Assembly (NCBI RefSeq): GCF_000800455.1
Contig: NZ_CP007456.1
Span: 1,116,001 to 1,180,000, forward strand
Direction of reading: 5' to 3'
Length of the DNA stretch: 64,000 bases
Source of the DNA: Bifidobacterium catenulatum PV20-2
GTDB taxonomy: Bacteria; Actinomycetota; Actinomycetes; Actinomycetales; Bifidobacteriaceae
Each line of letters begins with the position of its first letter. The stretch's first letter is position 1. Of the stretch, positions 4,575 to 34,205 are shown piece after piece. Below the pieces are notes generated by a model, which ran no database searches, was not told the origin of the DNA, and worked only from the letters and a program-made list of their open reading frames with translations. The position numbers and the translations under genes are program-made.

Positions 4575-6458
4575 ATGCATTTGATGATTCCTAACCTGAC
4601 TTATGAGGATAGGCGTAGGAGTCTTGGACGTTTGGCGTTGTGGTGGGTTGAGACGTTCAGCCTCATCGGTCGCGGTGGTGCGACCGGTAAGCCTGTCACT
4701 CATAGTCCTGAGTATATCCAGTTCTATTTGAACGCCTACGCGTTGAAGCCGAATGGTCGGCGCAGGTTCAATCGTGTGAGCTTGTGGCGTCCGAAGGGTT
4801 GCAACAAGAGTGGCTTGGGCAACGATCTGGCCTTGTTCGAGGCTTTTGGCCCTTGTCGCTTCGACCATTGGGCTAATCCGGGTGAGACGTATACGTTTCT
4901 TGGTCAGGCTTACTATTACCTGCCAGGTGAGCCTGTTGGTCGTCCTGTCCAGCGTCCTGAGATTCTGTGTTTGGCTACGTCCGAGGACCAGTCGGGCAAT
5001 ATCTTCGATTCGATTCACTATAACTGCACTTCCGGCCCGTTGGCCCAGTTGCAGGGTTTCGGCATGGAGGTCACGAAGACCCGTATCGGCTTGCCGGAGG
5101 GTGGGGAGATTATTCCCACGACTTCCGGCGATGCGTCGAAGGATGGTGGTCTTGAGACTTTCGCGTTGATGGATGAGGTGCATCTGTATACGCTGCCGAA
5201 GCATCATTCGATGTATAAGACGGTTCAGCGTAATCTTCCGAAGCGTTCGTTGGATGCCGACCCTTGGGTGTTGGAGATGACGACGTATTTCCGTCCGGGT
5301 CAGAACAGTGTGGCGGAGAACACGTTGAAGATCGCGGAGGATATTCAGGCTGGCCGTTCCAGGCATTATAAGGGCTTGTACTTCGACTATCGGTATTCGA
5401 CGCTTCCTATCGAGGATTTTCCTGATGAGAAGAAGCTTGAGCACGCGTTGTATGAGTCGTATGGCTCTGCCGCCCATTCGGATGATGGTAAGGATTACAT
5501 CATTCTTCCCGATGGGCGTATCGAGGCCGTTGATGCCGATGGCTATTCGGTTGAGGGGTTCTCGCTTCGTGATGATGGCGTCGAGCCGGGGCCGTCGAAG
5601 GATGGTTGGGTTGACATTCATGGTCTGATGGGGCAAATCTACCAGCCTGATTCGGACCCGAATGATTCGATTCGTTATTATTTGAACTCTCGTGCGTCGA
5701 GTGAGGATTCGTGGCTTACGGAGCCTGCGATCCAGTCGCATTTGGCTTACAGGGATTTGTATGGCCGTGCTGTCGGCTCGTCTTCTCGTTTGGATGGGGT
5801 CTGGAAGGATTTCATTGACGAGGATGAGGAGATCACGCTTGGGTTCGATGGTTCGATTCGTAATGATTCGACCGCGTTGGTTGGTTGTCGCGTGTCCGAT
5901 GGTCTGCTGTTTCTTATCAAGTTGCAGCAGCGGCCTGATAATGCGGACCCTGATTGGCGTGTTGACCGAGATGGTTTCGATGCCGCCGTGCGTCGTATGT
6001 TCGAGAATTACAATGTCATCGGCTGTTTCGCCGATGCGCATTTCTTCGAGTCGATGATTGGCGGCTGGGAGGCTGAGTATGGGCGTGGCATGAAGGTGTT
6101 CGCCCGTGGCCAGTCTTCGATGATGAAGTTTTGGACGAATAACTGGTCGCAGGATATGTATCGTGCGTTGCAGTGCGCGCATTCGTCGTTTGAGTATGCT
6201 CCCGAGCCTGTTGAGGAGGGGGAGCCTGACCCGAATAATATTCTTTTGTGTGCCGACCCGCGTCTTGTGTCGCATTTCCGTAACGCGAAGCGGCGTGAGA
6301 AGAGTTGGGGCTATCAGATTCATAAGGAGACGCCTAAGAGTCCGCACAAGATCGATGCGTGCATGGCTGGCGTTTTGGCTTATGCGGCGCGTGAGAAGTA
6401 TTTGGGCCAGTTCGAGGATGAGACTCCGCAGCGGGTGATACCGCAGCGGGTCTGGTGA
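4575..6458 (+). CDS. Terminase large subunit (ATPase-nuclease)
   Basis: This packaging motor translocates DNA into the prohead and cuts it. The ATPase domain has a divergent Walker A, WRPKGCNKSG (about residues 71-80), and Walker B ALMDEVH (about 198). The nuclease half shows the acidic positions GFDGSIRNDS (about 422), CFADAHFF and KIDACMAGVLA (about 590), as expected for an RNase-H-like fold. Length of 627 aa is longer than many phage terminases but within range. The ATG at 4575 starts one base after the small-subunit stop, so the two are translationally coupled. Confidence 0.93.
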   Translation: MHLMIPNLTYEDRRRSLGRLALWWVETFSLIGRGGATGKPVTHSPEYIQFYLNAYALKPNGRRRFNRVSLWRPKGCNKSGLGNDLALFEAFGPCRFDHWANPGETYTFLGQAYYYLPGEPVGRPVQRPEILCLATSEDQSGNIFDSIHYNCTSGPLAQLQGFGMEVTKTRIGLPEGGEIIPTTSGDASKDGGLETFALMDEVHLYTLPKHHSMYKTVQRNLPKRSLDADPWVLEMTTYFRPGQNSVAENTLKIAEDIQAGRSRHYKGLYFDYRYSTLPIEDFPDEKKLEHALYESYGSAAHSDDGKDYIILPDGRIEAVDADGYSVEGFSLRDDGVEPGPSKDGWVDIHGLMGQIYQPDSDPNDSIRYYLNSRASSEDSWLTEPAIQSHLAYRDLYGRAVGSSSRLDGVWKDFIDEDEEITLGFDGSIRNDSTALVGCRVSDGLLFLIKLQQRPDNADPDWRVDRDGFDAAVRRMFENYNVIGCFADAHFFESMIGGWEAEYGRGMKVFARGQSSMMKFWTNNWSQDMYRALQCAHSSFEYAPEPVEEGEPDPNNILLCADPRLVSHFRNAKRREKSWGYQIHKETPKSPHKIDACMAGVLAYAAREKYLGQFEDETPQRVIPQRVW

Positions 6459-8126: not shown

Positions 8127-9226
8127 TGGCCGATAGCGCGTTGGCTGCCGTTCAGGCGTTGGATGACCAGCGGTTGAAGCTGGTTGACGAGTTCGTCCGC
8201 AGGGCTTGGAACATGTGGCGTAGCCTGACTCCTTCCGACTGGTGGAATGATGCGGTGGCCGAGGGGGCGGCTGCTTATGTGACGCAGCAGCATATCGCGT
8301 TCGTGAAGGCTATGCGCCAGCAGGGCATCTCGTATGCGGATACGATGCTGCGTCTGGCCGGTGTGAACGGTTTGGGGGATGTCCCACAATATGAGGTTGT
8401 TCGCGCCAATACGGACCCGTGGCAGGTCGCCATGAGGGTCGCGGACGAGTATCGCACTCAGGCCGTGAAGAATCCTGAGATTCGACCTGCTACGTGGGAT
8501 GAGATTCTGAAGGACGCCGACCAGTCCGCCGCCAACCATGTGAAGGCTTGGCTGATGGCCGCGAAAATCCAGTTGGAGAACAATGCGGTCACTGACGGCT
8601 ATGTTGCTCAGAATCGTGCCATACAGTCGCGTTACAGGAGTTCCGGCGTCGAACGGTATCGGCGTGTGATTCATCCCGAACTGTCGAAGACGGGTTCGTG
8701 TGGTTTGTGTGTCGTGGCCGCTACCAACACGTTCACGAAGGCTGATTTGATGCCCATGCACAACAGATGCAAGTGCACAATTTCTCCGATTACCGCATCG
8801 AATGACCCCGGGTTGAAATTGAACTCGGATGATCTGATGACGATATACAAGGCCGCTGGCAAAACGTCGGGCCGTGATTATTCCACGAGCGCGACGGATT
8901 TGACGAAGCTTCGCGTGAAGGTCGTCAACAATAGCGAGCTTGGGCCTGTGCTGCTTCGCAAGGATGCTCCGGTGAATGGGAACGCGCCGGAATGGCATCT
9001 GCCAGACATGAAGATGACCAGTGCGCAGATGGAGCGCATGTTCGCCCGTGCGACCGAGTTCAACGCCCGGTACAAGGAATTGCTGGATGGTGACAAGGAT
9101 TCGGTTCAATTCCGTTTCGATGGGCGTTCGTATGAGTTCAAAAAGACAGTCCACACTAAGCAGGCTTGGCAGTACGTGCGGAGCCTGTTGGCTTATTCTC
9201 GCGGTTTTTTGGGACTGGCCGCTTAA
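8126..9226 (+). CDS. Minor head / head morphogenesis protein
   Basis: A 366-residue protein overlapping the portal stop (TGATG). The N-terminal half is helical. Around residues 190-225 it shows a compact Cys/His pattern: SCGLCVVAATNTFTK, then MHNRCKCTISP. This pattern is characteristic of phage head morphogenesis proteins encoded next to the portal (SPP1 gp7 / Mu F-like group). These proteins enter the prohead in few copies and help genome ejection or assembly. There is no sign of an added toxin domain at the C-terminus. Confidence 0.8.
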   Translation: MADSALAAVQALDDQRLKLVDEFVRRAWNMWRSLTPSDWWNDAVAEGAAAYVTQQHIAFVKAMRQQGISYADTMLRLAGVNGLGDVPQYEVVRANTDPWQVAMRVADEYRTQAVKNPEIRPATWDEILKDADQSAANHVKAWLMAAKIQLENNAVTDGYVAQNRAIQSRYRSSGVERYRRVIHPELSKTGSCGLCVVAATNTFTKADLMPMHNRCKCTISPITASNDPGLKLNSDDLMTIYKAAGKTSGRDYSTSATDLTKLRVKVVNNSELGPVLLRKDAPVNGNAPEWHLPDMKMTSAQMERMFARATEFNARYKELLDGDKDSVQFRFDGRSYEFKKTVHTKQAWQYVRSLLAYSRGFLGLAA

Positions 9227-24692: not shown

Positions 24693-24748
24693 CCCCACGT
24701 TTTCGTGGGGTTTTCTTGTATGACACCCCACGTTTCTCGTGGGGTTTT
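24693..24748 (+). terminator. Tandem terminators before the tail fibre gene
   Basis: Two successive hairpins with the same CCCCACG/CGTGGGG stem (24693-24710 and 24726-24744) are each followed by TTTTCT. This is a duplicated terminator. Confidence 0.8.
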
Positions 24749-24768
24749 CTGTTTTTGGAGTGTGCGTA

Positions 24769-27700
24769 GTGGCAGACCATGTTGAACTCAGGCCGGATGA
24801 CGCATCCCTTCCGTTGACGTTGGCTGACATAGCGTTGCGGAACAGCAACATGCGGTTGACGTATCTTTCCGGCACCATCGCGGTCGATAACGGGGATGGG
24901 ACGCAGACTTGGATCGGCGGCTCCGATTCGGGCGAAGCATTGCCGGGTTGTAACGGCATCATCCCGTGGGTTGGTGACACGACTCCTCCCGGACGTCCCA
25001 ACGGTATCAGCGCCGTGTGCAGGACGGAATGCGTGTTCGTCCAATGGGATGGCACGTTGGAGGGTGGTATTCCAGCCGACTTCGACCATGTTGAATTGTT
25101 CGCGAAGCCGGATAGTACCGGTGAATCGTTGGATTTGGGCCAGTTGCGTGGTAAGGGCGAGCTTGCGACCGGCGTGCTGCCGGTCGGTGACGTGGTTGAG
25201 GTGTGGGCCATAGCCTATGACAACGCTCATGACGAGAATGGTGTGTCCAAGCCGAACGCCTCGCAGGAGTCGGAACATGCGACCGTCATCATCGCGCCCA
25301 TCGTTTCCCAGAAGGATTTGAATGACGCGGCTTCTGAGATTCTTGCTTCCGCGAAGGATGATGCCGCCGCTCAGGTGAAGAAGGTCAGTGACGGGTTGGA
25401 TGCGGCCCGCAAGGACATCGACGCGAACACCGAAGCGGCAACCGCTTTAAAGAAGCAGCAGACCCAACTGCGTTCCGACTTGGATTCCGCGTCGAAGAAA
25501 ATCGACGAGAACGCTCAGGGTGTTGGTGCCGTCAAGAAACAGCAGGATACCGCTGATGCGGCGTTGAAATCGTTGGGCAAGACCGTTGAGGATAACAAGG
25601 CCGCTCAGGATGCGATTAACGATCAGCAGGCTGAGACGAACAAGACGATTGCCGATAACAAGGCGGCTTTGGCTGATGCGTCGAAACAGTTGGAACAGGC
25701 GAAGGCTGATATCAAGGCTGGCCGGTCTGATTTGGCGAAGGCTCAGGAGACTCTGGCCGACAATACGCAGAAACTGTCTCAGGCGCAGAAGGACATCCAA
25801 GCCACCAAGTCGGCTCAGGATGCCACTGCTAAAGAGCTTGCGTCTGCGAAAGCTGACATCAAGGCTAATCAGGATGGTCTGACCGCCGCGAACAAGACGA
25901 TTGCCGATAACAAGGCGGCTTTGTCTCAGGCGCAGAAGGACATCCAAGCCACCAAGTCGGCTCAGGATGCGACCGCCAAGACGCTCGCTCAGGCGAAGTC
26001 TGACCTGTCTCAGGCCCAGAAGGACATCGCGCAGACCAAGACCGACCTGACCACGGCGAATGGCGAGATTTCGAAGGCCAAGGAGTCTGCGGCTCAAGCG
26101 TATGCGGAAGCGCACAGCAAGAATCACACTTTCCGTGGCCCCGACGAGCCGAAGGACAATCTGATCGTCGGCGACTTGTGGCTCAAGACGCAGAAGTATT
26201 GGACGCGCTGGCAGGGCGAGAAGAATAACTCGCCGTCTCTGCTTGCCGACTTCTACACCTACTGGCAGGGTGAGCCTAATAACAGTCCGTCCGTGCTCGT
26301 GCCGCTCGCTGACCGCGTGATCGACACGCTTGTCTGGGATGGCTCCACGTGGAATCATCTCGGCTATGCCGACGTGGAGAACAATGCGAAGCAGATCGAG
26401 CAGGCGAAGCTCGACATTGCGGACAATGCTGCGAAGACCACGGACGCTCGGAAGGCTGCCGAGAATGCTGCCGCCGCCGCGAAGACCGCTCAAGGCACCG
26501 CCGACAGTGCGACTGGCGCGGCGAAGACCGCGCAGGATACGGCTAATGCGGCTCAGACGGCGGCGAAGAGCGCGACAGCGACTGCCGGTCAGGCTAAGAG
26601 TGCTGCCGATGCGGCGCAGACCGCCGCCGAAACCGCCAAGAAGACCGCGACCAATGCGGAAACATTGGCTGACACGGCGAACAAGTCGGCCAGTGCGGCC
26701 AAGTCTGACGCGGCTTCCGCCAAATCGGATGCGTCCACGGCGAAATCGGATGCCGCCAATGCGAAGACCGCCGCCGCCAATGCGTCGAGTGTGGCGACCC
26801 AGGCCAAGGCTACGGCTGACAGTGCGGCCCAGTCCGCGACTGATGCGGCGACCGCCGCTCGGAAGGCGAATGATGCCGCCGCCGCTGCCGCCGGTGTCGC
26901 GAACGGCAAGGCGGATGTGCTTATCCAATCGTCGGCTCCGGCCACGTCGATGCGCAAGGCTTCGACCTTGTGGATTGATACGACCGGTGGTGCGAACACG
27001 CCGAAACGGTGGAATGGCAGTGCTTGGACGGCTGTGACCGACAAGGCTGCGACTGATGCCGCGAACGCGGCTGTCAAAGCCAACAGTGCGGCGAAGACCG
27101 CGCAGGACACGGCGGACAAGGCCACCACCGCCGCCGCGAATGCCGCATCCCAAGCCAATCAGGCCGAAGCCGCCGCGAAAAAGGCCCAGACCACGGCTGA
27201 CGGCAAGAATCTCATCTACCGTGGCCCCGACGAGCCGAATCATGATGGACTGAAACCGGGTGACATGTGGTGGCGCACCCAGAAGTATTGGACGCGCTGG
27301 CAGGGCGAGAAGAATAACTCGCCGTCTCTGCTTGCCGACTTCTACACCTACTGGACTGGTGAGCCGAACAATTCGCCTAGCGTGCTCGTGCCACTGTCTG
27401 ACCGCGTGATCGAGGTGTTGACTTGGGATGGTACCCGTTTCGAGCCGTTCGATCTCGTGGCGAACAATGTTCTCGCTGCTGGCACGGTTGGGGCGAAAAC
27501 CATCGCCGCAAACGCGATCACCGCCGAGAAATTGGCCGTGAATGCTGTGACCGCCGATAAGATCGCCGCCAACTCAGTGACCACCGAGAAGCTGGTGGCT
27601 GACGCTGTGACCGCCGCCAAACTGGCCGCAAATTCGGTGCAGGCGCGGAATCTCACCGCCTTGTCGGTCACGACCGACAAGCTCGCTGCCAATTCGGTCA

Positions 27701-29967
27701 CTACCGGCAAGCTGAAGGTCACGGAGGATATGACCGTCGCACTGCTCAACGTCCACAAGATTCAAGCGGGCGACATTGTGTCCGGTGCCGTGACCGCGGA
27801 CAAGCTGGCCGCCACTGCCGTGACCGCGGACAAGCTGGCCGCGAACAGTGTGACGGCTGGCAAGGTGCAGGCCGGTGCCATCGGCACTGACAAGGTGGCG
27901 GCGAACGCGATCACGACGGCGAAGCTCAATGTTACCGAGGACATGATGGTGGCCTTGCTCAAGGCTCACCAGATTCAGGCCGGTGACATCACGGCCAACG
28001 CGGTCACGTCCGACAAGATTGCCGCAAACGCCATCGGCACGGACAAATTGGCAGCTAATGCGGTCACTTCGGACAAGATTGTGGCCAACGCGATTACCTC
28101 TGACAAGATTCTCGCCAATTCGGTCACTACCGGCAAGCTGAAGGTCACGGAGGATATGACCGTCGCCTTGCTGAAGGCCCATAAGATTCAGGCCGGCGAG
28201 CTTGACGCCAATAGCGTGACCGGTCAGAACATCAGGGCCGACGCCTTGTATGGCAAGACGATTCAGGGTGGTGTGTTCCGCACGTCCGATGGGCGTATGG
28301 TCATCAATGATGCCGGTATCGTGGCGAAGTCCAAGACGAGTCGGAAACGTCAAGCGTATTACACGTATTGGCAGGGTGAGCCGAACAACAGTCCCAGTGT
28401 TTTGGTGACTGTTGATTTGGATGCGGATGAGACGTTCGTGTTGGATTCGCAGTCTGGCACGGTCGCCTTGTGTGGTGAGATTCTTTCCGGTTCCACGATC
28501 AGTGGCACGTCGATTGTCGGTAGCGAGTTCCGTACCGCTAATTCGCGCATGTTGTTGAACGATAGTGGCTTGGTGTTGCGGAACGTGCAGGGCAAGGCCA
28601 CTGTCACGTTGGATGCCGCTTCAGGTAACGCGACATTCACTGGCACCGTGACCGGTTCCACGATCACTGGCGGCACGGTTTCCGGCGCTGTCATCACGGG
28701 TAGCGCGTTCACGTCTCCGGATGGGAAGACGAAACTGAACTCTTCAGGATTCTACGTGGGCGACAAGCTGGCCTATGATGCTAAGACTGGCTTGCTGTCG
28801 TTGAAGGGTAGCATCCAGTCGGGTTCCGATTTGAGTGGCGTGACCGTGACCGGTTCCACGATTCAAACGTCAAGCGCGGCGAATCGTGGGTTGAAGCTCA
28901 CTTCCGGTGGCCTCGTCGCCTACGACGGGAATGGTAATGCGAAGTTCACGTTGAAGTCTGACGGCACCATTCAGATGAATGGCGCGTTGATGACGAACGG
29001 CAAGCTGACCGCCGCCACGTTGGAGGGTGGCACGATCACCGGTGGCACGATCACTGGTGGAACGATTCAGTCGAGTACCGCCGCCAATACCGGCTTCAAA
29101 CTGACTGGTGGAGCGTTGGACTTCTATGACAAGTCGAACAATCGAACCGTCCATTTGAACGGTACCGATAATCTGCTTTCCGGCACGTTCCAGACCCGCA
29201 CGAGCGGTCATCGCGTGCGCATCAGCCCGGACTACCAGTCGTACATCATCGGAGGTTCGGAGACTTTTACCGGCGACGGATTGGAATTCCCAGCCTACAA
29301 CGGTTCCACCGCCTACTACAGTCATCCGACGGTCGCGTCCGCCATCCAGTCGAATCAGGTCGGCTCGATGAGCGAATTGGACTTGTGGAGCGGACACATC
29401 ACGAAGAACGATCCGGCCGCCTTCCTGCGACTCCAGTCCAAGCCACGCAAGAGGGGCGGCACCGGCAGCGGCGGCGTCACATCCACTGTGAAGGCAACGG
29501 CGAACACGAATTACGACGAGCCCGACATGAGCAAAAAAAGCAGCGCAACGCTCACTTTAACCGGCGACAGTGCGAACGGTTCGGAGTTCTGGCTCCACGC
29601 GCAAGACGCGAACGGTTATGTCGGAATCGGAGCGAACATCGCGACCGGATACCTGTCGTTCGGTGGCTTTCTCAGCGGCATCACGAACCGTCAGACCTTC
29701 CAGTCCACTGCCGCGTGGAAGGCATGGTGGCCGAATCCCGGCCAGCGCATCGCGACCGGCGCAGCGGCGCAGGTCACCTGCACGCTCAGTCCGGCGAAAT
29801 ACGGCCGCTATTTCGTGGTCGCGAACGCGGATTCGGAATGGGCCGGCATCATCGCACATCCGTGCAATACGGGCGGGCAGAGCGGCTTCACAATGAAACT
29901 GTATAACGCCGACCAGCCGTGCCCCGTCGACGTGTATGCGGAATACCTCGCCTATCTGGTCAAATGA
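24769..29967 (+). CDS. Giant repeat-rich tail fibre protein
   Basis: A 1,732-residue fibre. In order it has a beta domain (1-180), a long coiled coil with repeated AQKDIQATKSAQDATAK units (180-450), and two copies of a domain starting RGPDEP with WxGExNNSPS motifs (about 452-520 and 815-880). Ala-rich helical rods flank these domains. Then come ADKLAANSVTTGKLKVTEDM repeats (900-1150), a Gly/Thr beta repeat region (STITGGT) and a C-terminal beta domain. It is probably trimeric and contacts the host. The GTG start follows GGAG by eight bases; the upstream ATG lies inside a terminator and is rejected. Confidence 0.85.
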   Translation: MADHVELRPDDASLPLTLADIALRNSNMRLTYLSGTIAVDNGDGTQTWIGGSDSGEALPGCNGIIPWVGDTTPPGRPNGISAVCRTECVFVQWDGTLEGGIPADFDHVELFAKPDSTGESLDLGQLRGKGELATGVLPVGDVVEVWAIAYDNAHDENGVSKPNASQESEHATVIIAPIVSQKDLNDAASEILASAKDDAAAQVKKVSDGLDAARKDIDANTEAATALKKQQTQLRSDLDSASKKIDENAQGVGAVKKQQDTADAALKSLGKTVEDNKAAQDAINDQQAETNKTIADNKAALADASKQLEQAKADIKAGRSDLAKAQETLADNTQKLSQAQKDIQATKSAQDATAKELASAKADIKANQDGLTAANKTIADNKAALSQAQKDIQATKSAQDATAKTLAQAKSDLSQAQKDIAQTKTDLTTANGEISKAKESAAQAYAEAHSKNHTFRGPDEPKDNLIVGDLWLKTQKYWTRWQGEKNNSPSLLADFYTYWQGEPNNSPSVLVPLADRVIDTLVWDGSTWNHLGYADVENNAKQIEQAKLDIADNAAKTTDARKAAENAAAAAKTAQGTADSATGAAKTAQDTANAAQTAAKSATATAGQAKSAADAAQTAAETAKKTATNAETLADTANKSASAAKSDAASAKSDASTAKSDAANAKTAAANASSVATQAKATADSAAQSATDAATAARKANDAAAAAAGVANGKADVLIQSSAPATSMRKASTLWIDTTGGANTPKRWNGSAWTAVTDKAATDAANAAVKANSAAKTAQDTADKATTAAANAASQANQAEAAAKKAQTTADGKNLIYRGPDEPNHDGLKPGDMWWRTQKYWTRWQGEKNNSPSLLADFYTYWTGEPNNSPSVLVPLSDRVIEVLTWDGTRFEPFDLVANNVLAAGTVGAKTIAANAITAEKLAVNAVTADKIAANSVTTEKLVADAVTAAKLAANSVQARNLTALSVTTDKLAANSVTTGKLKVTEDMTVALLNVHKIQAGDIVSGAVTADKLAATAVTADKLAANSVTAGKVQAGAIGTDKVAANAITTAKLNVTEDMMVALLKAHQIQAGDITANAVTSDKIAANAIGTDKLAANAVTSDKIVANAITSDKILANSVTTGKLKVTEDMTVALLKAHKIQAGELDANSVTGQNIRADALYGKTIQGGVFRTSDGRMVINDAGIVAKSKTSRKRQAYYTYWQGEPNNSPSVLVTVDLDADETFVLDSQSGTVALCGEILSGSTISGTSIVGSEFRTANSRMLLNDSGLVLRNVQGKATVTLDAASGNATFTGTVTGSTITGGTVSGAVITGSAFTSPDGKTKLNSSGFYVGDKLAYDAKTGLLSLKGSIQSGSDLSGVTVTGSTIQTSSAANRGLKLTSGGLVAYDGNGNAKFTLKSDGTIQMNGALMTNGKLTAATLEGGTITGGTITGGTIQSSTAANTGFKLTGGALDFYDKSNNRTVHLNGTDNLLSGTFQTRTSGHRVRISPDYQSYIIGGSETFTGDGLEFPAYNGSTAYYSHPTVASAIQSNQVGSMSELDLWSGHITKNDPAAFLRLQSKPRKRGGTGSGGVTSTVKATANTNYDEPDMSKKSSATLTLTGDSANGSEFWLHAQDANGYVGIGANIATGYLSFGGFLSGITNRQTFQSTAAWKAWWPNPGQRIATGAAAQVTCTLSPAKYGRYFVVANADSEWAGIIAHPCNTGGQSGFTMKLYNADQPCPVDVYAEYLAYLVK
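26191..26265 (+). repeat. 75-bp exact repeat in fibre gene, copy 1
   Basis: Identical to 27280-27354. It encodes the KYWTRWQGEKNNSPSLLADF part of the RGPDEP domain. Identity at the DNA level shows a recent duplication or gene conversion. Confidence 0.9.
27280..27354 (+). repeat. 75-bp exact repeat in fibre gene, copy 2
   Basis: Identical to 26191-26265. The two copies are 1,089 bp apart in direct orientation and in the same reading frame (a multiple of three), so recombination between them would delete 363 residues without a frameshift. Confidence 0.9.
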
Positions 29968-31070: not shown

Positions 31071-31244
31071 TTGAATCAGATTCCAGCCGACGCGAACGAC
31101 GTCATCGACACGCTCTCCGCGCAAATCGGCACTCTCAACAAACAAATCGCAATACTGAACAGCCAACTCGCGGCGGCCATGAAACTGATTCCGCAGGATG
31201 TGCGCGACGCAACCAAGGGGGTGGATGATGACAGTGAGGATTAA
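31071..31244 (+). CDS. Small coiled-coil phage protein, 57 aa
   Basis: TTG start with AAAAGGAG seven bases upstream. The core VIDTLSAQIGTLNKQIAILNSQLAAAM is a clear short coiled coil with a heptad pattern of I, L and V. It overlaps the next gene by 17 bp. It is probably an oligomerising stalk for the neighbouring tail-tip proteins, but that is inference. Confidence 0.65.
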   Translation: MNQIPADANDVIDTLSAQIGTLNKQIAILNSQLAAAMKLIPQDVRDATKGVDDDSED

Positions 31245-31729
31245 CTGGTTCCCGGACCCGAATCTGGCTAACACCATTTTCAAATGCATACCAATAAAAT
31301 GCACTGTGGATTTTCCGACCGTCGGCGGCTTCCGGTGGCTGCGTGCCACGACCAGCAGTGGTGGTGACGTATACGCGCAATACGAGCTCACAGGAGTGAA
31401 TCTTCCACCGGCCGGCGCGTATCACATTCACGCAGTCTGCTATGCGCAAGGCACGGGCGCGTTGTTCCGCGTCTATGCGGGCGTCGGCAACGGATTCACC
31501 ATCCTGTACGAGACCGGTGTCGCAGACAATCAGACGAAGATTATTGACGCGGACATCACGATTCCGGCCGGCACGACGCAATTGCTGATCCGTGTCATTC
31601 CACCGTCCACGGTCGGAAAATTCATACTGATTCGCGACATCCTCCTCGAATCCAAGTCCACTTACGACACTGCCATTGGGGGGGGGGCTTCCGGGCTTCT
31701 TCACGGGGGACACGATGCCGCTCGCATAG
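31228..31729 (+). CDS. Tail-tip paralogue A, frame broken by a G10 tract
   Basis: This gene starts at ATG 31228 after AAGGGGG and begins MTVRINWFPDPNLANT. It encodes a beta-sandwich-like protein rich in aromatic residues, with the end DILLESKSTYDTAIGGG. At 31678-31687 lies a run of ten G. With nine G the frame would end FFTGDTMPLA and stop at 31729 (166 aa), matching the ends of the two following paralogues. As written, the zero frame instead runs to 32148 through gene B in a low-quality, His/Arg-rich frame. The protein is probably a carbohydrate-binding receptor module switched by slippage; a sequencing error is the alternative. Confidence 0.7.
31678..31687 (+). repeat. Homopolymer tract of ten G in a tail-tip gene
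   Basis: This is the longest G run noticed in the window. Nine G gives intact gene A. Ten gives a C-terminal out-of-frame extension to 32148. Eleven gives an early stop near 31759. Its place 40 bases before the natural stop is where slippage swaps the C-terminus. Confidence 0.85.
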
Positions 31730-31756
31730 GAGCGTCCGTCGGGCGGGTGATGCCCG

Positions 31757-32125
31757 ATGAGGGTCACGAACCGATGCACGAGCCCAACCTCGACCATCAC
31801 CTTGAGAGCAAACGCGTGGAGGCCCATCACGACCGTTCCGAGCGTGATGGGCATGAACTATTGGGTCAGCGTCTATGTGAACGTCACCGGCGGCACCATC
31901 CGGATAGAAGGAACGAATGCCGACATCAGCAAAAGCCAACGTATCCATTACTCGATGGTCATCAACAATACCGGTCCGGTATCAATGTGTTATCGCGTCA
32001 AGTCAGGCAGTCCGACCGTCACCGTGACAGACATGCTCTTATGCTCGTTCGACGAGTATCAGGCGAACAAGGCTGTGCTCGACAGCCTCCAATATTTCAC
32101 CGGGGATACGATGCCGCTAGCCTAA
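31757..32125 (+). CDS. Tail-tip paralogue B
   Basis: A 122-residue protein beginning MRVTNRCTSPTSTITL. It contains YWVSVYVNVTGGTIRIEG and ends with YFTGDTMPLA. Its last 40 residues align by eye with gene A (D-I/M-L-L-x-S ... Y ... FTGDTMPLA). It appears to be a jelly-roll binding module of a phage tail tip. Its start lies 28 bases after the intact stop of A; no strong ribosome site is visible, so it may depend on coupling. In the ten-G version it is overlapped by the extended reading frame of A. Confidence 0.65.
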   Translation: MRVTNRCTSPTSTITLRANAWRPITTVPSVMGMNYWVSVYVNVTGGTIRIEGTNADISKSQRIHYSMVINNTGPVSMCYRVKSGSPTVTVTDMLLCSFDEYQANKAVLDSLQYFTGDTMPLA

Positions 32126-32144
32126 CCCTCACGGGGGTGGTGGC

Positions 32145-32636
32145 ATGAGCCCGATCACCAACTATTGGCCAGACCCGCGTTTCCGCGACATCGGCAAGCT
32201 CGGCATGCACGGCTGCACCATCGTCAACGCGAACGGCCTGTACGACCCGGCGAGTCAATCATGGCCGGGCGTCACCATCAAAACGACAAACACAAACGGT
32301 ACGGATAACTGGTGTGAGAGGACCGTCAGCCTGCCAGCGGGCGCGAGGCTCGTCATTGCATGCAGTTCGAACGGCAACGCTACCGACACGAACACCAGCA
32401 TCAACTGCTGGAGCGCGACAAATAAGGTGGCGGAATGCCCTTTGAACGGTGGATCGAGCGACGAGTTCACCGTCCCGCCGCAAGGGTGGATAAAAGTCAC
32501 CCTGAGAGCGGCAATGCATGTTGGCGAGAAGCGCACGGTCGTAAACCTGTTCATCGGCACCAAGGCCGACTACGAGGCTTTGATGCGGCTCACCGGCCAT
32601 AGGTTCCTCGCTGGCGACTTAATGCCGATCGCATAG
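32145..32636 (+). CDS. Tail-tip paralogue C
   Basis: A 163-residue protein beginning MSPITNYWPDPRFRDIG and ending FLAGDLMPIA, sharing the start (N-x-x-P-D-P) and end (F-x-G-D-x-M-P-x-A) signatures of gene A. The middle is beta-rich and Thr/Asn-rich. A GGGGGTGG ribosome site precedes the ATG. It is the third in a row of related small tail-tip modules, presumably for sugar recognition on the host surface. Confidence 0.7.
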   Translation: MSPITNYWPDPRFRDIGKLGMHGCTIVNANGLYDPASQSWPGVTIKTTNTNGTDNWCERTVSLPAGARLVIACSSNGNATDTNTSINCWSATNKVAECPLNGGSSDEFTVPPQGWIKVTLRAAMHVGEKRTVVNLFIGTKADYEALMRLTGHRFLAGDLMPIA

Positions 32637-33404: not shown

Positions 33405-34205
33405 ATGAAATCATGGGAGAATCTGGAGGCGGATGAGGATCTCATTCTCTCCACGCACATGACCAAGGGCCGTCAGGGATGCAAGGTCGACAAGATCGTT
33501 TTGCATCATAATGGCGGGAACCTGACCGGCAAGGGCTGCTACGACGTGTGGCAGACCCGTGAGGCTTCCGCGCACTATCAGGTAGCGGCGGACGGCAGGA
33601 TCACGCAGCTCGTCTGGGATACCGATACAGCTTGGCATTCGGGTGACTGGGATGCGAATCTCACGTCCATCGGCGTGGAGCATGCGGATATCTCGTCCGA
33701 CCCGTGGCGGATCTCCGACGCGACGTTGGACAATGGCGCGCATCTGGTGGCCGCGCTCTGCAAGCGTTACGGCCTCGGACGTCCGCAGTGGGGCGTCAAC
33801 GTGTTCCCGCACAGCCATTTCTCCGCGACCGCCTGCCCGGCATCCATCGCAGGAGACCAGCGCGGCGCCTACGTGGCCAAGGCGCAGGAATGGTATGACA
33901 GGATGACCGGCACGACAGTGCCGACGCCCGCCGTACAGCCGACGCAGTCCGCCACGGAATCGTCCGCAAACGTGTTGCAGGGCACGTATCGTGTGGCCGT
34001 GGACGGGCTCAACGTGCGCGACCGTCCGAGTGTTTCCGGCAATGTGGTCGCCACCTATTCCAACGGACAGACCGTCAATCTGGATCATTGGGGCACCGTC
34101 GCGGACGGCTACATCTGGGGCCGTTACACGGCCTACAGCGGAGCCGTGCGCTACGTCGCGCTGGCTCCCGCGGACAAGTCAACCTGGTATCTCGTCAAAG
34201 CCTGA
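33405..34205 (+). CDS. Endolysin: N-acetylmuramoyl-L-alanine amidase with SH3b domain
   Basis: A 266-residue lysin. The N-terminal amidase-2 domain (1-165) has the zinc ligand motif VLHHNGG (His34), the AWHSGDWD segment and HSHFSATACPA (about 136-146). After a Pro/Thr linker (170-190), the C-terminal SH3b-type domain (GTYRVAVDGLNVRDRPSVSG) binds the wall. It cleaves the amide between MurNAc and the stem peptide to release progeny. AGGAGG precedes the ATG. No signal peptide, so it needs a holin. Confidence 0.92.
   Translation: MKSWENLEADEDLILSTHMTKGRQGCKVDKIVLHHNGGNLTGKGCYDVWQTREASAHYQVAADGRITQLVWDTDTAWHSGDWDANLTSIGVEHADISSDPWRISDATLDNGAHLVAALCKRYGLGRPQWGVNVFPHSHFSATACPASIAGDQRGAYVAKAQEWYDRMTGTTVPTPAVQPTQSATESSANVLQGTYRVAVDGLNVRDRPSVSGNVVATYSNGQTVNLDHWGTVADGYIWGRYTAYSGAVRYVALAPADKSTWYLVKA

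Follow-up and report, generated by a model that had tools for sequence, protein, structure and literature searches.

A G tract at the end of bifidobacterial prophage tail modules as a candidate three-way router of translation

Introduction

What would the gain or loss of a single G decide at the end of a phage tail gene? The question is raised by a stretch of 64,000 nucleotides from Bifidobacterium catenulatum PV20-2 (NZ_CP007456.1, positions 1,116,001 to 1,180,000; hereafter the window), in which an exact run of ten G at 31678-31687 lies at the 3' end of module A, a small gene that stands together with modules B and C between the tail-fibre and endolysin genes of a prophage. An earlier note on this DNA had located the run correctly and read it as a phase-variation switch that flips the C-terminus of A, a probable receptor-binding module of the tail. 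In related prophages, such tracts recur in the same relation to the next two open reading frames (ORFs), so that routing would describe the mechanism better than a C-terminal flip. With guarded confidence, we take the tract to be a contingency element that is prone to slippage, placed where a module of receptor-binding type ends, and acting mainly as a three-way translational router.

Results

Translating the pieces on each side of the tract separately gives three exit frames from module A, which we call module n, with B as its partner n+1 and C as n+2. Frame P0 adds 13 residues ending in GDTMPLA and stops at a TAG at 31727-31729, which is the frame that the earlier note had obtained by removing one G; B and C end as it had stated, in the GDTMPLA/GDLMPIA manner. 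Frame P1, reached with eleven G, has the early stop predicted for it after 23 residues, and this stop (31758-31760) falls within the ATGA start of B (31757-31760). Frame P2, used by the deposited sequence, runs for 152 codons and stops at 32146-32148, on the TGA of the ATGA start of C (32145-32148). The ten-G frame is long, open and in use, as had been noticed, although the label of His/Arg-rich nonsense does not suit it, since a frame that ends on the ATGA of C is not arbitrary.

The tract is the sole run of at least 7 G or C in the window. A G8 run is not surprising by dinucleotide shuffling (3 overlapping matches against a mean of 1.81 expected, with 30 of 100 shuffles reaching 3), so that a raw excess of G runs in the window was rejected, and the whole genome holds 11 runs of at least 9 G with both strands counted. 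The significance of the tract comes from its positional conservation among relatives, not from run length as such.

The same site in relatives carries tracts of 7, 8, 9 and 10 G, and one contig (L012) ends in G16; in related Bifidobacterium prophages, runs, mostly of G7 to G11, occupy this site or the 3' end of an equivalent module, and each of the three phases is represented. Scanning viral sequences with A found 4 loci, a degenerate pattern of the tract matched 8, and B and C as single queries matched the same prophage only. Profile searches of 112 Bifidobacterium genomes found A-type modules in 12 and C-type modules in 18. Seven of the 10 runs of at least 8 G in ten records (nine from IMG/VR and one phage; 310,721 bases) lie at this junction. 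The tract is not universal to such modules, being present at the junction in 8 of 16 fetched regions and absent from the other 8. Further junctions, termed class II, are captured by a pattern (G8, 40-70 bases, TGGYSGCATGA) that was built after examples had been seen and that finds 15 tracts in 9 of the 112 genomes, versus 0 of 112 for the reversed pattern; class II patterns had 0 matches in viral contigs. As grouped, class II comprises 16 junctions, in which one frame stops 0-2 codons past the tract (1 or 4 in L152, whose two adjacent runs are counted as one site). Several arrays hold more than one tract: the seven-module array of G056 has them in the first, third and fifth modules, those of G005, G010:C18, G046 (two contigs) and G054 have two each, and IMG/VR 2645727643 (L055) has two at junctions.

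The resulting table holds 36 rows from 25 loci; a 37th tract, in L057, failed, with a further indel nearby. Over the compared stretches, L005 is identical to the window and L010 to L014, and L045, L059 and L010 are one and the same contig region. Among 31 tracts, the deposited phase is P0 in 10 (including the interrupted tract of L001), P1 in 13 and P2 in 8. This count leaves out L012, L122, a duplicate row of L152 and two atypical junctions, L055:1173 and L113:3512, the latter of which is kept in the 27 rows and 17 clusters given below, and it uses a separate frame reading for the upstream frame of L015 and L018, where the script chose wrongly. L119 and L055 differ by one G (8 versus 9) within flanks that are 93-96% identical. 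Such a spread of lengths and phases looks as it should in a hypermutable tract, though single lengths may be misassembled. A homopolymer of slip length overlaps a coding frame, and its length differs among isolates so as to change the frame, as in a contingency locus. The earlier proposal of phase variation was right in kind (same site, variable length, three phases in relatives), and the switching itself is suggested by analogy.

What recurs around these tracts is the placing of the frame ends. In 36 of 37 tracts one frame, the P1-type exit, has its stop within the NTGA start of the ORF that follows, detection itself having required NTGA at the n+1 start (1 of the 37 failed), and the n+1 start is NTGA in 22 of 22 partner clusters (made at 40% identity) versus 8 of 27 control starts. 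In 27 of the 36 rows, at 26 sites, frame P2 has no stop inside the partner and terminates on the NTGA of the n+2 ORF; in L113 (2924) its stop comes immediately ahead of the n+2 start (TGAATGA). It closes early in 7 rows, of which six (L015, L044:7444, L122, L123:1692, L153 and L155, with a P2 of 3-13 codons) have a partner that is apparently the last module, and the seventh (L055:1173) is not a junction. Labels are shifted in L015, where the label P2 falls on the frame with the canonical 13-residue end, and the one left over enters the partner in the partner's own frame. Counted by clusters, P2 is open in 17 of 17 with an n+2, against 0 of 6 last partners (p 1e-5, or 5e-5 with L018 as a failure). 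No +2 stop occurs in any of the 17 clusters whose P2 gets as far as n+2, for which a synonymous shuffle gives a product of 8.8e-19 and a Fisher-combined value of 5.3e-6. The upstream stop overlaps or adjoins the downstream start, which is one of the features expected of translational coupling.

The downstream starts were also examined for predicted hairpins, with near-duplicates left out, at 15 of the 16 class II n+1 starts, 6 class I n+1 starts and 16 n+2 starts. Class II n+1 starts have a mean z of -2.87 and a Shine-Dalgarno stretch unpaired at 0.14, compared with -0.07 and 0.47 at 27 control window starts (p about 2e-6); n+2 starts reach -1.70 (p 8e-5), and seven first-module starts stand at 0.31. 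The case for routing comes mainly from the relatives, and in the window it concerns C rather than B.

Several points weigh against this case. The hairpin signal is not significant at class I n+1 starts, which include B of the window (z -0.79, p 0.11), a first control, made up of 16 window starts chosen by hand, gave a less favourable result (mean z -0.79, unpaired 0.43, one start at -6.4), and the downstream modules, which carry G-rich Shine-Dalgarno-like sequences themselves, may start independently. In the window, P0 leaves a gap of 27 nucleotides to B, within the 19-31 nucleotides left by ordinary module ends, so that P0 may also permit B, and for B only P2 would then be clearly different in the window class. 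Ordinary window genes are themselves short of +2 stops (640 seen versus 803.4 expected, about 20% fewer, in 46 genes), with 1 of 19 small window genes lacking them against 0.11 expected, and the 17 clusters were picked by outcome, that is, by P2 reaching n+2; the shuffle probabilities therefore overstate the case. Which partners count as last was judged by eye, with the frames already seen and with cluster 8 having a member on each side, and the array members are related. In L018, P2 stops inside the partner, 5 bases short of the contig end, a possible exception that, together with the outcome-picked clusters, slightly lowers our confidence in the router. Homopolymer lengths in assemblies can be wrong, and the tract at the junction is interrupted in one relative, L001, the only case found of the non-homopolymer sequence that the earlier note had named as telling against its own reading.

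As to what would be switched, the array modules are small tail proteins that probably bind sugars. The A module of the relative L006 (not A itself), in a single-sequence model with a mean predicted local distance difference test (pLDDT) of 67.8, folds as a beta-sandwich resembling carbohydrate-binding modules (CBM) of types CBM4, 6, 16, 22 and 29, and among the folds listed, other proteins with this common fold rank high too. Known CBMs are not matched by sequence: A, B and C have no match in Pfam (E up to 0.1) or PHROGs (E up to 0.01), and a PDB search returned nothing for the A profile and weak matches for C. The predicted fold lends some weight to the earlier view of a receptor-binding module. 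In the same model, the tract and the end motif lie in a low-confidence tail outside the beta-sandwich, which is complete before the tract, and the class II tract stands at the very end of the protein, both of which speak against a switch that mainly flips the C-terminus of A.

Compared with their neighbours, the modules show more differences at codon positions 1-2 relative to 3, with many amino acid changes and few synonymous ones. B of the window and of L006 are 63% identical, with 16% of conserved codons changed and 34, 28 and 23 differences at positions 1, 2 and 3; for the gene after the array, the corresponding values are 92%, 30% and 14, 6 and 39. Of the 28 B pairs, the 7 that involve L045 differ at position 3 roughly as often as at position 1, or more often. 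Diversifying selection, which receptor-binding proteins would be expected to undergo, is suggested by this pattern. The substitutions also brought into consideration a diversity-generating retroelement, which would have an adjacent reverse transcriptase and a template repeat with adenine-specific changes.

A read-through tail acting as a second conserved folded protein was considered and rejected. Conservation of the alternative frame of B exceeds expectation only mildly (mean z 1.67 over 45 related pairs, 1.6-3.0 in window pairs), and the differences in B do not favour codon position 2, contrary to the prediction for constraint on that frame. The deposited 306-residue frame has no Pfam match, and its residues 144-306 have a pLDDT under 50 in a weak model (mean 41.5, from 2 sequences including a same-phase relative). 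P2 read-through is probably not a way of making a second protein.

Gene context supports the earlier placing of the module in a prophage tail region, with terminase, portal, tape measure, Dit-like and tail-fibre-like genes upstream of the array and endolysin and integrase genes downstream (Table 1). In other arrays, tail-fibre or tail matches and endolysins lie beside L112 and L119, endolysins beside L043, L123 and L153, a minor-tail match beside L114 and a GH25 lysozyme downstream in L055; the long ORF of L154 had no match.

Table 1. Positions in the window of the tract, its exit frames, the array modules and neighbouring features
Feature	Positions	Strand	Remarks
Module A (n), tail-tip module body before the tract	31228..31677	+	150 codons; relative L006 predicted to fold as a CBM-like beta-sandwich
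G10 tract, 3' end of A	31678..31687	+	deposited phase is the read-through frame P2
Frame P0 after the tract	31688..31729	+	13 codons, LPGFFTGDTMPLA, then TAG
Frame P1 after the tract	31689..31760	+	23 codons; stop is the TGA inside the ATGA start of B
Frame P2 after the tract	31690..32148	+	152 codons, open across all of B; predicted unfolded
Predicted small hairpin over the start of B	31737..31759	+	Shine-Dalgarno-like GGGTGA in loop; weak, not significant for the class
Module B (n+1, partner)	31757..32125	+	122 residues, ATGA start; frame +2 without stop
Predicted hairpin over the Shine-Dalgarno-like sequence and start of C	32111..32146	+	5' arm holds the stop of B; z -1.76
Module C (n+2)	32145..32636	+	163 residues, ATGA start; final module of the array
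Tail fibre-like protein	24739..29967	+	1742 residues, upstream context; phrog_892 tail fiber protein, E 1.1e-20
Endolysin, amidase	33405..34205	+	downstream context; phrog_14048, PF01510

Other G tracts were seen along the way. In the genome of the window, a G15 tract stands ahead of a 498-codon open frame (G000:C1:271136, L022), and G9 and G10 tracts lie inside long open frames with hydrophobic, membrane-protein-looking stretches at 1923847 on the minus strand (L034) and at 1941042 (L035). A G10 tract sits inside a different gene of a related prophage (L048, G113:C1:8315). In L155 (G075:C1:89500-97500, minus 4214), a G8 tract occurs near the end of a long frame matching the tail protein phrog_28673, and one exit frame terminates on the start of the next ORF, so that the design may extend beyond small modules. 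Two surface-protein-like frames of L046 (G010:C46) have G10 tracts near their MPxTG-like C-terminal ends (2495-2504 and 4941-4950). Similar ORF ends, '...QALQRSLEPAT', adjoin a G10 tract at two places in one genome (L122 minus 3192 and L046 minus 219), perhaps marking a mobile element, as if it inserted at G tracts. In L047 (G056:C16), G10 tracts at 2452-2461 and 8731-8740 on the minus strand lie just 5' of hydrophobic, signal-peptide-like stretches in long open frames, an arrangement reminiscent of the Bifidobacterium breve pilus switch of Penno et al. (PMC9187656).

Discussion

We propose that replication slippage alters the number of G in the tract and with it the frame in which ribosomes exit module n. 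In P0 they would stop soon past the tract; in P1 they would stop on the NTGA start of n+1, where reinitiation is possible; and in P2 they would cross n+1 in its stop-free frame and stop on the NTGA start of n+2, so that n+1 is skipped. Predicted hairpins around the downstream starts would be opened by the translating ribosome, and where an array has several tracts, a clonal prophage population would come to hold mixed tail-tip compositions, with possible effects on attachment. In its most general form, each tract would be a three-position router (stop, hand to the next module, or skip through a stop-free corridor) and k tracts would give up to 3^k translation programmes from one operon, without recombinase or transcription control; on this wider claim our judgement is almost evenly divided, with a slight lean toward doubt.

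Simple ON/OFF phase variation of the C-terminus of A, with incidental downstream effects, would account for the GDTMP end motif, common to B and C, that follows the tract in the window-type junction. We think it unlikely, as the 16 class II junctions have a frame that stops at once past the tract, the predicted fold of the relative is already whole ahead of it, and a stop-free P2 ahead of a further module would be left unexplained. Another explanation would have P2 kept open only against polarity, in which an early stop exposes untranslated mRNA to termination and silences the downstream lysis genes, no module being selected. Such polarity is described behind out-of-frame G-tract stops of B. 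breve by Penno et al. (PMC9187656), and it agrees with an alternative frame that is hardly conserved as protein and predicted unfolded. Yet P1 and P0 stop before n+1 too, P2 shuts within 3-13 codons in the six last-partner junctions even though L123 and L153 at least have lysis genes further on, and the NTGA end points find no explanation in polarity, which leaves it quite unlikely in our estimate.

Long homopolymers are generally slippery for polymerases, and transcriptional slippage or ribosomal frameshifting might give all three products at once, the DNA length merely biasing their ratio. A predicted hairpin at the tract could assist this; the lengths in relatives, however, span three phases, and the 8 versus 9 G of L119 and L055 within their nearly identical flanks are as expected of DNA slippage, and we rate this explanation as quite unlikely as well. 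An assembly or sequencing error in the homopolymer, with no biology behind it, is scarcely credible. Database G-tract lengths can be unreliable, as Penno et al. (PMC9187656) also indicate, and the indel of L057 and the G16 of L012 at a contig end point the same way, but many genomes have a tract at this very place, several of them with two or three in one array, and artefact as the whole story was rejected on that ground.

If routing is correct, the tracts would form a second, recombinase-free variation system in the tail region of bifidophages, present in several genomes of the genus, and homopolymer slippage could choose among downstream genes, beyond switching a single gene on or off. Plaque-forming bifidophages are hard to find, and the variability of phage and host surfaces may contribute to this, according to Mavrich et al. 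(PMC6109161).

In 2018, Mavrich et al. described the Rin shufflon of bifidobacterial prophages, in which a tyrosine invertase inverts DNA at 11-bp rix sites (PMC6109161). The present arrays would resemble it in diversifying receptor-binding proteins of Bifidobacterium prophages, and like it they hold several small variable modules in a row; 'G-tract', 'homopolymer' and 'slippage' are not mentioned in the main text of that article. Rin-type inversion was rejected for this array, the rix site TTCCCTAACCC having 0 matches in the window at up to 1 mismatch. In 2022, Penno et al. (PMC9187656) showed that B. breve sortase pili switch by replication slippage in G tracts, with mixed tract lengths measured and polarity behind the out-of-frame stop, and it is by analogy with that work that we suppose slippage to occur in vivo here. 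Both systems belong to the same genus and have tracts inside a gene (there about 9-12 G); an output that depends on the frame, with an effect on downstream genes of the cluster, is described there and would hold here too. In the pili, two ORFs of one pilin are joined by a tract in the early part of the gene, whereas the tracts here mark the 3' ends of tail modules of phages, an array often having several, with frames ending on the next or next-but-one starts; the main text of Penno et al. does not mention 'phage'.

In the full-text literature, with most subscription journals outside its coverage, we found no description of phage tail modules switched by a G tract. Classical termination-reinitiation coupling works through ATGA overlaps and hairpins that sequester starts. 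The present junctions share with it the stop-start overlaps, with hairpins predicted over class II n+1 starts and n+2 starts, and would differ in that a slippery tract chooses between two successive overlap sites, for which we know of no described case. In this sense, the arrangement would be a G-tract contingency locus of a kind already known, and the routing between genes of a tail-module array would be its new part.
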